Positions 5,149-32,602 of a stretch of DNA of 35,729 nucleotides are shown piece by piece. Below the pieces are notes generated by a model. It had not been told where the DNA came from, did not search any database, and worked only from the letters and a program-made list of their open reading frames with translations. The first letter of the stretch is position 1. The number at the start of each line of letters is the position of its first letter. Origin of the DNA: Mycobacteriales bacterium (lineage in GTDB: Bacteria > Actinomycetota > Actinomycetes > JAFAQI01); NCBI GenBank assembly GCA_035504215.1, contig DATJSI010000092.1:1-35729 (forward strand). The letters are read 5' to 3'. The translations under genes were made by a program, and so were the position numbers.

Positions 5149-5197
5149 ACCAGCAGGGCCGGCCGGTACGGCGAAAACCCGTCTTCTGTGGACGATG

Positions 5198-5219
5198 CGG
5201 TGGATGACCCGGTGGATGA
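5198..5219. repeat. Tandem CGGTGGATGA repeat in the permease upstream region
   Basis: CGGTGGATGA occurs at 5198-5207 and 5210-5219 (12-base period). TGTGGAC strings flank the repeat at about 5187, 5254 and 5265. The region may contain protein-binding repeats; it is not coding if the permease starts at 5114. Confidence 0.4.
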
Positions 5220-5304
5220 GTGGATCTTGCTGGGGGTAAATACGGCGTCGGTTGTGGACATCGTGTGGACGCAAAAAGATCTTGAAAAAAGTTCGCGAAA
5301 CCTC

Positions 5305-5333
5305 TTGTGCCCGTGGGTCGCACCCACTAGACA
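5305..5333 (+). promoter_or_regulatory. Possible promoter for the structured RNA
   Basis: TTGTGC (5305-5310) and TAGACA (5328-5333) are separated by 17 bases, resembling sigma-70-type -35 and -10 elements, although the last -10 base is not T. Transcription would begin near 5340, just before the first hairpin of the candidate RNA. The spacer itself holds GTGGGT-CGC-ACCCAC. Confidence 0.3.
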
Positions 5334-5339
5334 TTCACC

Positions 5340-5549
5340 TGTCACCGGGAAGCCGGAGGCCGGGTCAGAGGAAACTCTGATCACGTCAGGGGAGACTCTG
5401 ACACGAGCGGTGAGTCGGGAAACCGGATCACCGAGCGGGGCTTCAGGGCACCGGTACCGGCAAGGCAACGCACGGTAGCCGAGCAATCGGCTTACCGGTG
5501 CAGCGGAGCCGAGTGAGGCCCCTCCAACTCATACTTGGAGGGGCCTCAC
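5340..5549 (+). ncRNA. Candidate structured RNA with GNRA-capped hairpins
   Basis: Four successive inverted repeats on this strand each close on a GNRA tetraloop. (A) 5364-5381, TCAGAG/CTCTGA with GAAA. (B) 5385-5402, GTCAGGG/CTCTGAC with GAGA. (C) 5408-5433, CGGTGA/TCACCG outer stem, a G-A mismatch and an inner stem with GAAA. (D) 5470-5501, GCAC/GTGC, GGTA/TACC and GCCGA/TCGGC with GCAA and two single-base bulges. Hairpins A and B are near-duplicates; where they differ, pairing is kept (A-U to G-U, G-U to G-C). The array ends in a 15-bp hairpin. On the opposite strand the loops would be TTTC, TCTC and TTGC, so the RNA most likely reads plus. It could be a small RNA or the leader of the MIP channel gene, which starts 120 bases later. 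I do not recognise the family. Confidence 0.6.
5513..5549 (+). terminator. Perfect 15-bp hairpin, probable intrinsic terminator
   Basis: GTGAGGCCCCTCCAA (5513-5527) pairs without mismatch to TTGGAGGGGCCTCAC (5535-5549) around the loop CTCATAC. There is no U-tract, which is common for actinobacterial terminators. It lies upstream of both flanking genes. It therefore terminates neither coding transcript, but it would end the candidate RNA or act as an attenuator for the MIP gene. Confidence 0.7.
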
Positions 5550-5669
5550 GCCATTCTGCCCAACATCTTCTGCGCGACCGGGCAGCGACACACTGAAGAT
5601 CGCGCGAATTCTCCGCTACTGCGTGATGACCGCTTGCGGCTCGCGCGCCCTCGTAGCGTTGAGGTCGAG

Positions 5670-6503
5670 ATGGAGCACACCGATGCATTGCCGGCGCAAA
5701 GCGGTGTCCATCTGGTCGAGTGGGCGTGCGAGTTCGCCGGCACCGCCGCGTTGCTCGTCGGTGGGTTGTCGGCCGTGTGTTTCGACTTCGGCCCGGGAAC
5801 GCCGTTGCACGCCGTGCCGCATTCCGCCCGGCTGCTGATCACCGGCTTGCTGTTCGCCGGCACCGGCAGCCTGATCGCGATCAGCCCGCCGGGCCGGCGC
5901 AGCGGCGCGCACATCAACCCGGTCGTCACGCTGGCCTTCTGGACCCAGCGCAAGGTCCACCCGCACGACGTCTTCGGCTACGTGATCGCCCAGTGCACGG
6001 GAGCCATCCTCGGGGCCGCGATCGTGCGACTGCTGTGGCAGCACAAGGCAAGCGTTCTCGATGTCGGCGCAACGACACCGGGACGCGGGCTGTCGGATCC
6101 CGAAGCAGCGCTCGTCGAGGCGCTCATGACGGCAATCCTCATCATCACCATTCTGTTCATGACCTCGAGCGCTCGGACCGCACGGTGGACACCGCTCGTG
6201 CTGTGGCTGGTGATCGCGACCCTCGTCTGGCAGGGCGCGCCCTACACCGGCACAAGCTTGAACCCGGCGCGCAGCCTCGGTCCCGCGCTCGTCGCGCCAC
6301 TGTGGTCGCACTTCGAGGTGTACGTCGCCGGACCGCTGCTCGGCGGCGCGGTCGCGGTCGCGGTGTTCGCGGCGTTTCGCGACCGGCACGTGCTCACTGC
6401 CAAGCTGTTCCACGATCCGGCGTACCCGTCGACGTTGGCGACCAGCCTGCCGACGGCTCCCGGTCCGGACGCCGCCCGCAGACTTTCCGGTTCAGCCGGC
6501 TGA
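5670..6503 (+). CDS. MIP-family channel (aquaporin/glycerol facilitator type)
   Basis: 277 residues with six predicted membrane spans and two half-membrane loops. The first pore motif is NPV (83-85, SGAHINPVVTLAFW) in place of the usual NPA. The second is canonical NPA (198-200, GTSLNPARSLGPAL), followed by the selectivity arginine Arg201. MIP channels conduct water or small neutral solutes; the solute cannot be assigned here. The ATG at 5670 has GAGGT about nine bases upstream. The longer frame from 5535 would begin inside the terminator-like hairpin and is rejected. A possible -10 (TAGCGT, 5654-5659) lies close to the start. Confidence 0.88.
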   Translation: MEHTDALPAQSGVHLVEWACEFAGTAALLVGGLSAVCFDFGPGTPLHAVPHSARLLITGLLFAGTGSLIAISPPGRRSGAHINPVVTLAFWTQRKVHPHDVFGYVIAQCTGAILGAAIVRLLWQHKASVLDVGATTPGRGLSDPEAALVEALMTAILIITILFMTSSARTARWTPLVLWLVIATLVWQGAPYTGTSLNPARSLGPALVAPLWSHFEVYVAGPLLGGAVAVAVFAAFRDRHVLTAKLFHDPAYPSTLATSLPTAPGPDAARRLSGSAG

Positions 6504-30625: not shown

Positions 30626-31558
30626 TCAGCCCGCGGTCGCGCCGACCCGCGCCCGGTCCGCCGACAGCCGCTCCTCGTACTGGGTTGCCATCTGCTCGAG
30701 CTGGTCGAGATGCGCGGCAAGGTCGGACTGCGCCTGCTGTGCCACGGGCGAGTGGAACGTCGTCTCGAAGACCTTCCAGTGCCGAAGGATCGGCGCCACC
30801 ACCTCGTCGCGATGGATTCGCAGGTCGTAGATGCCGGCCTTCGCGATCCGCACGCTCTTGCGCGAGAAGTTCGGGATTGCGGTGCCGGGCATCTGGAAGC
30901 CGAGCACCTCCGCGGCAACCGCGACGACCGTCTGGTCGGGATCCACCTCCATCGCCGCGCGTACCAGATCGCGGTAGAAGACCATGTGCAGGTTCTCGTC
31001 GGCGGAGATGCGCGCCATCAGCTTGTCGGCGACGGGATCACCGCAGATCCTGCCGGTGTTGCGATGCGCGATCCGGGTCGCCAGCTCCTGGAAGCTCACG
31101 TAGGCGAGCACCCGGACCAGGTCCTTGCCGGCGGCGGAGTACCCGTTCTGCATCGTGGCCATCCGGCCCCGCTCGAGCTCGATCGGATCCGCGGCCCGCG
31201 TCACCAGCAGGTAGTCGCGGATGCACATCGCGTGCCGGCCTTCTTCGGCCGTCCAGCGATGCACCCAGGTCCCCCACGCGCCGTCGCGCCCGAACGCGGT
31301 CGCGATCTCGTGGTGGTAGCTCGGCAGGTTGTCCTCGGTGAGCAGGTTCACCTCGAACGCGGTCTGCGCCACGGGAGACAGCGACGACTGGTCCGGAGTC
31401 CATTCGATGCCCTCGTCGCCCACGAAGTCGCGACCCAGCCGCCACGGCACGTACTCGTGCGGCATCCACTCCTGCGCGAGGGAAAGGTGACGGTTGAGGT
31501 TGACCTCGACCGTCGGTTCGAGCTCGCGAAGAAGGTCCAGCGGATCCAACGTCTGCAT
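30626..31558 (-). CDS. Soluble acyl-[ACP] desaturase
   Basis: 310 residues of the ferritin-like di-iron desaturase family. Iron ligands are visible as Glu75 (LLTEDNLPSYHHE), Glu106-x2-His109 (AEEGRHAMCIRD), Glu159 (VSFQELATRIAHRN) and Glu188-x2-His191 (ADENLHMVFYRD). It introduces a double bond into acyl-ACP, using electrons from ferredoxin. The FprA-type reductase encoded at 32543-33904 could supply these. The start MQTLDPLDLL at 31558 follows GGGTGAG and fits the family; the longer frame to 31915 overlaps the opposite-strand genes. Actinobacterial DesA1/DesA2 proteins are similar in size. Confidence 0.93.
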   Translation of the reverse strand: MQTLDPLDLLRELEPTVEVNLNRHLSLAQEWMPHEYVPWRLGRDFVGDEGIEWTPDQSSLSPVAQTAFEVNLLTEDNLPSYHHEIATAFGRDGAWGTWVHRWTAEEGRHAMCIRDYLLVTRAADPIELERGRMATMQNGYSAAGKDLVRVLAYVSFQELATRIAHRNTGRICGDPVADKLMARISADENLHMVFYRDLVRAAMEVDPDQTVVAVAAEVLGFQMPGTAIPNFSRKSVRIAKAGIYDLRIHRDEVVAPILRHWKVFETTFHSPVAQQAQSDLAAHLDQLEQMATQYEERLSADRARVGATAG

Positions 31559-31657
31559 CTCACCCTGCCTTCGTGATCGACTGATCCTTCCCCGATTTGG
31601 CCCATACAGTCGCACGGCTCGATGGTCCAACGCCAATATGCGGCGTACCTTCACCTC

Positions 31658-31786
31658 ATGGGCAACAAGAACAAGGCAGGCCGCGAGCCTAAAAAGCCGA
31701 AGAAGAGCTCGAAGCTCAAGGCGGCGCCGGTGGCCACCACGGTCATCCCTACGGCGCAACATCCGACCGAGCACAAGTCGCAATAG
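31658..31786 (+). CDS. Small lysine-rich protein
   Basis: 42 residues beginning MGNKNKAGREPKKPKKSS, very basic in the first half, with a Thr/His/Gln-containing tail. Short proteins with an MGxxNKAGREPKKPK-like start recur in actinobacteria without assigned function. The frame lies in the gap between the desaturase and the membrane protein gene. No ribosome-binding site is obvious, so it may be leaderless. Confidence 0.65.
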   Translation: MGNKNKAGREPKKPKKSSKLKAAPVATTVIPTAQHPTEHKSQ

Positions 31787-31822
31787 ACCGTTCTGGGCGC
31801 GGCTCACGCCAAGATTGATGCC

Positions 31823-32602
31823 ATGACCGATCCGCCCGAACCGTCCCACTCGTCGATTTCTGCGGCCGACGCGAAGGGACGGTGGCTCACCGAGCGGGTC
31901 GAGGCCGATATCCACCGCGCCGAAGAGCGCTACGTCCCCGCCTGGCTGCGGCCGACCGACGCCGAGAACCGGATCCCGGCCGGCATCGCGATCGCGGTGG
32001 CGATCGTGCTGCAGCTACGCCTGCCGAACCGGTACGGCGTGCACCCGCGCTGGATCCTGCCCGCGCTCGAGGCGGCGCTGCTGGTCGCGCTGACGATCCT
32101 GAACCCGGTGCGGCTCACGCGCCGCACGGCGTTCGGACGGTACGCGGCGATCCTGCTGGTCGCGCTGATCACCGCCGACAACGTGATCAGCGCGATCCTG
32201 CTCGACCATGACATCCTCACCGGCGGCGCCAGCAACGACGCGACCGGCCTGCTGGCCAGCGGCTCGGCGATCTATCTGACCAACATGATCGCGTTCGGGT
32301 TGTGGTACTGGGAGATCGACCGCGGCGGACCGTTCGCGAGAACCCAGGGCGAGGATCCGCACCCGGACTTCCTGTTCCCGCAGATGACCAGTCCCGAGCT
32401 CGCGCCGGCGGACTGGGAGCCGCGGTTCCTCGACTACCTCTACGTCAGCTTCACGAACGTCGTGGCGTTCTCTCCGACCGACACGATGCCGCTCGGGCGT
32501 GGGGTGAAGACGTTGATGGCGGTGCAGAGCCTGGTCGCGCTGTCAACCATCGGGCTGGTCCTCGCCCGCGCCGTCAACGTCCTCAACGTGGCCCACCACT
32601 AG
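31823..32602 (+). CDS. DUF1345-like integral membrane protein
   Basis: 259 residues with about five membrane segments (IPAGIAIAVAIVL, ILPALEAALLVALTIL, AAILLVALITADNVI, AIYLTNMIAFGLWYW, LMAVQSLVALSTIGLVLARAV) after a charged N-terminus of about 50 residues. The stretch YVSFTNVVAFSPTDTMPL followed by ARAVNVLN is typical of the uncharacterised DUF1345 proteins. Transport or signalling cannot be inferred. Its last 60 bases overlap the 3' end of fprA on the other strand. Confidence 0.8.
   Translation: MTDPPEPSHSSISAADAKGRWLTERVEADIHRAEERYVPAWLRPTDAENRIPAGIAIAVAIVLQLRLPNRYGVHPRWILPALEAALLVALTILNPVRLTRRTAFGRYAAILLVALITADNVISAILLDHDILTGGASNDATGLLASGSAIYLTNMIAFGLWYWEIDRGGPFARTQGEDPHPDFLFPQMTSPELAPADWEPRFLDYLYVSFTNVVAFSPTDTMPLGRGVKTLMAVQSLVALSTIGLVLARAVNVLNVAHH

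Follow-up and report, generated by a model that had tools for sequence, protein, structure and literature searches.

A family of structured RNA genes in Actinomycetes with a phased array of DnaA-box-like sites upstream of the promoter

Comparison among Actinomycetes genomes indicates that the non-coding RNA encoded at positions 5340-5549 on the + strand of the window (the whole 35,729-nucleotide stretch of DNA that was analysed) belongs to a family of structural RNAs in this class that has not been described before, and that it is an independent gene. The gene, its fold, its promoter and a phased array of sites resembling the boxes bound by DnaA, the initiator protein of chromosome replication, were established by this comparison of sequences, and the position of the array over the RNA promoter suggests a link between replication and an RNA that has so far gone unrecognised. 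The best explanation, which we consider probable, is a new Actinomycetes family of structural RNA genes that are controlled by DnaA and whose products bind protein and act in trans. Opinion is evenly balanced on the fuller proposal, namely that a widespread RNA, with its transcription governed by DnaA through the phased boxes, relays the status of replication initiation to a protein in trans.

Fold and distribution of the RNA

The minimum free energy predicted for 5340-5549 (+) is -126.2 kcal/mol, whereas dinucleotide shuffles give -79.5 ± 4.6 kcal/mol, none of the 200 being as stable (z = -10.25). The first-pass annotation, made from the letters of the window alone, had judged that chance would rarely give four consecutive GNRA-capped hairpins with two near-duplicates among them. 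The + strand is preferred over the region 5320-5560 (fold z of -8.8, versus -5.1 on the - strand). Furthermore, a covariance model built from seven homologs, with the window left out, matched the window on the + strand with 126.6 bits (E = 1.6e-26), and its sole significant match on the - strand was the self-complementary terminal hairpin (27.4 bits). The start of the RNA is a prediction, accurate to about ±3 nt.

All parts of the RNA lie on the + strand. Domain 1 (5344-5455) is formed by closing helices around three hairpins: P1 (5344-5348/5451-5455), a further closing helix predicted by the fold (5352-5354/5447-5449) and P2 (5356-5361/5439-5444), with a P1/P2 topology that covaries among relatives. 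These helices enclose hairpin A, the first copy of P3 (5363-5382; loop GAAA, 5371-5374), hairpin B, the second copy of P3 (5385-5402; loop GAGA, 5392-5395), both assigned from the fold, and hairpin C, or P4 (5404-5437; loop GAAA, 5419-5422), assigned from the fold and covariation. Domain 2 is the interrupted hairpin D, or P5 (5458-5511; loop GCAA, 5483-5486), which is backed by the fold, the alignment and covariation and bears the conserved motif GCAACGCACGG/CCGGUGCAGC. The RNA ends in a perfect 15-bp hairpin (5513-5549; stem 5513-5527/5535-5549), a probable terminator, with a covarying stem and an almost invariant 7-nt loop, CUCAUAC. The four GNRA loops and the perfect hairpin are thus present as originally described. 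Hairpins A and B are indeed near-duplicates, as had also been proposed, and because the relatives in an alignment of homologs (A1) have a single hairpin in the P3 region, they probably arose by local tandem duplication of P3.

The structure of alignment A1 can be written P1-P2-(P3, P4)-P5-terminal hairpin, with 90.9% of cells paired. Changes on both sides were found in 22 pairs, a number as high as this occurring in 0 of 500 shuffles, and pairing fell to 32-43% when the partners were slid by 1-3 columns as a control. Each of the sequences, when folded singly, gives nearly the consensus shape. In addition, a second lineage (A2) has the same topology and 11 doubly changed pairs, which constitutes independent covariation; the check on relatives that had been suggested along with the original observation thus yielded a fold that covaries in two lineages. 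Among the hairpin loops of 61 members, 202 of 319 (63%) are GNRA loops compared with 3% in shuffles, each RNA having between one and ten GNRA hairpins. Judged from these comparisons, the RNA fold is under selection.

Homologs are spread over many families of the class. A BLAST search with the region from the window matched 29 of the 99 related class genomes searched, some matches being to the terminal hairpin alone, and the covariance model reached E ≤ 0.01 in 44 of 148 genomes of the class, the weakest matches including the palindromic hairpin on its own. Of 394 class genomes, 49 contain a terminal hairpin with the loop CUCAUAC and a variable stem, and a reversed control gave none. Those carriers that have names are Actinomycetes assembled from metagenomes and classified as Frankiaceae, Streptosporangiaceae, Nanopelagicales and Nocardioidaceae; the genomes of one genus (g43), several of which are single-contig and whose complete genomes measure 5.6-7.7 Mb, carry a variant with the terminal loop CCCUUAC. 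In families taken, from genome size and synteny, to be Streptomyces or Mycobacterium, neither the covariance model (in the genomes sampled) nor searches with the patterns of the promoter and of the box pair gave a match, and absence of the RNA from these genera is not proven. Hairpins with the CUCAUAC loop also occur without the RNA upstream, one directly after a gene (L165; G130:C2:5090) and one at L124 (G212:C19). The loop is therefore not specific to the RNA family, and it may mark terminators more widely in these bacteria.

The source genome of the window has a single covariance-model match, at the window locus, and some other genomes have at least two copies, including tandem pairs. In two such pairs (L034 and L035) the RNA genes lie about 380 and 490 bp apart, and their bodies have diverged while the terminal hairpins have been kept; G111 and G288 of family f38 (L119-L122) each carry two diverged paralogs on separate contigs. 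Members are 133-551 nt in length and usually include the second hairpin domain. A natural member without domain 2 (L059 in G005, 5718-5850) passes from domain 1 directly to the terminal hairpin, and two members (L067 and L132) appear to have been enlarged by arrays of repeated CCGAGCRAUCGG hairpins, to as much as 551 nt in L067.

A search of the window against Rfam 15, in which membership was defined as a covariance-model score at or above the gathering threshold, returned ASdes as the sole match, outside the RNA region. This match (31176-31243, +; 40.3 bits against a threshold of 40) is antisense within a desaturase-like open reading frame (30626-31915, -) and is probably conserved coding sequence rather than a small RNA. 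The RNA region itself, searched at E values of up to 10, matched miRNA models only, on the terminal hairpin and far under their cut-offs, and 13 member loci gave nothing but a tRNA. A known Rfam RNA was therefore ruled out as the identity, in keeping with the earlier statement that the structure could not be assigned to a known RNA class. No matching report of DnaA-regulated or GNRA-rich actinobacterial RNAs was found in the part of the literature that was covered.

Promoter and upstream box array

The promoter in the window is of the sigma70 type, TTGTGC-N17-TAGACA, with a -35 element (5305-5310, +) that is conserved among members and, after a spacing of 17, a -10 element (5328-5333, +) that reads TAGAAA, TACAAA or TACACA in relatives. 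A promoter of the type CTTGTGC-N17-TAGAAAT upstream and the terminal hairpin downstream are constant across families. The promoter pattern alone was found in 14 of 394 genomes, in at least ten of them at the RNA locus, with two matches in the reversed control.

The sequence upstream of this promoter, on which the first-pass annotation did not comment, is rich in DnaA-box-like 9-mers, which were counted within one mismatch of TTRTCCACA in the 150 bp upstream of the -35 element. At 42 loci, with the window left out, 80 such boxes were found, compared with 0.78 expected from the remainder of the loci and 2.35 ± 1.4 in dinucleotide shuffles; 37 less similar loci gave 67 boxes compared with 1.9 in shuffles. 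The words TGTGGAC, CTGTGGA and GGGATAA were among the top words enriched upstream in a de novo search. Across the class, and counted from the -35 element, the boxes recur at about -118, -106, -95, -53 and -41, and the spacing within each group is about one helical turn.

The boxes in the window, all on the - strand, agree with these positions, although just two of the six are within one mismatch. These two are TCGTCCACA (5187-5195; one mismatch), at -118, a phase that recurs class-wide, and ATGTCCACA (5253-5261; one mismatch), at -52, the most conserved position. The remaining four have two mismatches each: the weaker box TCATCCACC occurs twice, at -106 (5199-5207), again in the class-wide phase, and at -94 (5211-5219), where it was detected in the box scan; the weak box TTACCCCCA lies at -74 (5231-5239), where relatives have GGGGATAAC; and the weaker box GCGTCCACA lies at -41 (5264-5272), 11 bp from the previous box. 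At two other loci (L116 and L117) the boxes are on the opposite strand and still clustered, as is possible for binding sites. In M. tuberculosis and S. coelicolor, TTGTCCACA is listed as the DnaA box with high affinity (PMC4285127).

Nearness of the RNA locus to oriC is not general. The RNA and its array lie 1.39 Mb from dnaA in one genome (G313), and in four complete genomes, in one of which the locus was recognised by the promoter only, the RNA lies 218-317 kb from dnaA and is transcribed away from it. These distances rule out the array as an origin of replication.

In the proposed mechanism, DnaA would bind the row of boxes cooperatively along one face of the DNA, and the bound DnaA would set the activity of the promoter depending on how much DnaA is present or on its ATP state. 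The RNA, which is poor in single-stranded sequence, would in turn bind a protein or complex in trans through its GNRA hairpins, toward which it may act as a scaffold, a mimic or a sponge, and the status of replication initiation would thereby be passed to this partner. However, tightly folded RNAs are still able to base-pair via their loops, which counts against a reading in terms of protein alone.

The main rival within the DnaA frame is a site of the datA type that titrates or inactivates DnaA, the transcript being secondary and serving, for example, to clear or remodel the DnaA complex. datA binds DnaA and lowers initiation. The present locus resembles datA, DARS and datA-like clusters in having DnaA boxes outside oriC that adjoin a transcription unit, and at the sequence level it is a DnaA-box cluster of this kind; there is also precedent in the clusters reported in B. 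subtilis and S. coelicolor and in the effect of transcription on datA in E. coli (PMC10950094). However, the boxes here differ from those of datA and DARS in lying at constant distances from the -35 element of the promoter of a conserved structured RNA. Furthermore, the RNA fold itself is selected, as indicated by covariation in two lineages and by GNRA enrichment, so that a datA-like locus is unlikely to be the whole story and, as an explanation, is judged to be unlikely overall.

It is also conceivable that a protein other than DnaA binds the row of TTRTCCACA-like sites and that the RNA responds to something else, for example growth rate or stress. We regard this as distinctly unlikely, since the motif agrees with the DnaA box published for Actinobacteria (PMC4285127) and boxes with the same kinds of deviation occur at dnaA in several of the carrier genomes.

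Relation to other RNAs and to neighbouring genes

Ms1, the natural first candidate for such an RNA in Actinobacteria, binds the RNA polymerase core, and a divergent RNA of the Ms1/6S type that binds RNA polymerase would share several properties with the RNA described here. Like Ms1, MTS2823 and scr3559, which are actinobacterial, about 200-300 nt in length and highly structured, have a sigma70-type promoter and occur in many genera, it is a structured RNA of comparable size with its own sigma70-type promoter and a GC-rich 3' hairpin. Moreover, it is found in metagenome-assembled genomes filed as Frankiales, an order in which Ms1 was not detected (PMC9130861), and it lies 218-317 kb from dnaA in the complete genomes of one genus. 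However, Ms1 folds into a long hairpin interrupted by a bubble at its centre (PMC4191392), whereas the consensus of the window-type RNA is multibranched and contains no such hairpin. Ms1 adjoins a HAD-IB hydrolase gene (PMC9130861), whereas the window-type RNA is not beside a HAD hydrolase gene, the HAD loci being elsewhere in the genomes. Ms1 is usually transcribed toward ori (PMC4191392), whereas the window-type RNA is transcribed away from dnaA in the complete genomes. The regions at the Ms1 position in two families inferred to be mycobacterium-like (f5) and streptomycete-like (f19) have a different promoter, GGAGTACAAAG, and gave no significant match to the covariance model, and no comparable phased array of DnaA boxes was noted in the Ms1 regions examined. 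In addition, one genome (G023) carries both an RNA closely homologous to that of the window (L055) and an Ms1-like intergenic region at its HAD locus (L179:2274-2626), which by eye has CACCCACGCG and CGCCTGGTAAC in common with other Ms1 regions. As the two lie at separate loci, window-type RNA and Ms1 appear to coexist. Ms1 was ruled out as the identity by neighbourhood, fold, model search and this coexistence, and a divergent relative with an Ms1- or 6S-like function is very unlikely.

6S RNA is likewise a free-standing structured RNA gene; however, it is a long hairpin with a bubble resembling an open promoter, whereas the window-type RNA is multibranched, has GNRA hairpins and gave no match in Rfam. 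The number of repeated hairpins varies among relatives, as in sponge RNAs of the CsrB/CsrC type, from which the window-type RNA differs in that its repeats are GNRA-capped.

The genes flanking the RNA in the window are NicO (-) and MIP (+), and the RNA is on the same strand as MIP, a position that speaks for the switch initially envisaged, one acting in cis on MIP or NiCoT. MIP is a neighbour of the RNA in the window alone, and NicO in the window and a single close relative; the neighbours in other lineages, most of them identified by eye from sequence and not by family search, include methionyl-tRNA synthetase, GroEL, the ribosome-silencing-factor/NadD region and an acetyltransferase. No conserved protein neighbour that might give a clue to function was found across the member loci compared. 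The alternative pairing of CACCGGT with ACCGGTG on which the switch was based exists in the window, but CACCGGT is not kept at that position by relatives, which have CUGGUA, CUGGUG or similar sequences paired with the 5' strand of P1, so that the idea of a switch is unsupported. With varying neighbours, a promoter of its own, a terminator-like hairpin that ends about 120 bp ahead of the likely MIP start codon (5670) and an unconserved alternative pairing, a riboswitch or leader is hardly credible and was ruled out.

Implications for replication control in Actinomycetes

If the RNA is indeed a DnaA-controlled gene with a trans-acting product, Actinomycetes, in which little is known of how replication is controlled beyond oriC, would possess a layer of RNA regulation coupled to the protein that initiates replication. 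The finding would also add a new RNA family backed by covariation, and one genus with complete genomes would offer the RNA as an origin-proximal gene. Furthermore, the conserved promoter together with the box array can flag an RNA that is too divergent in sequence for ordinary searches.
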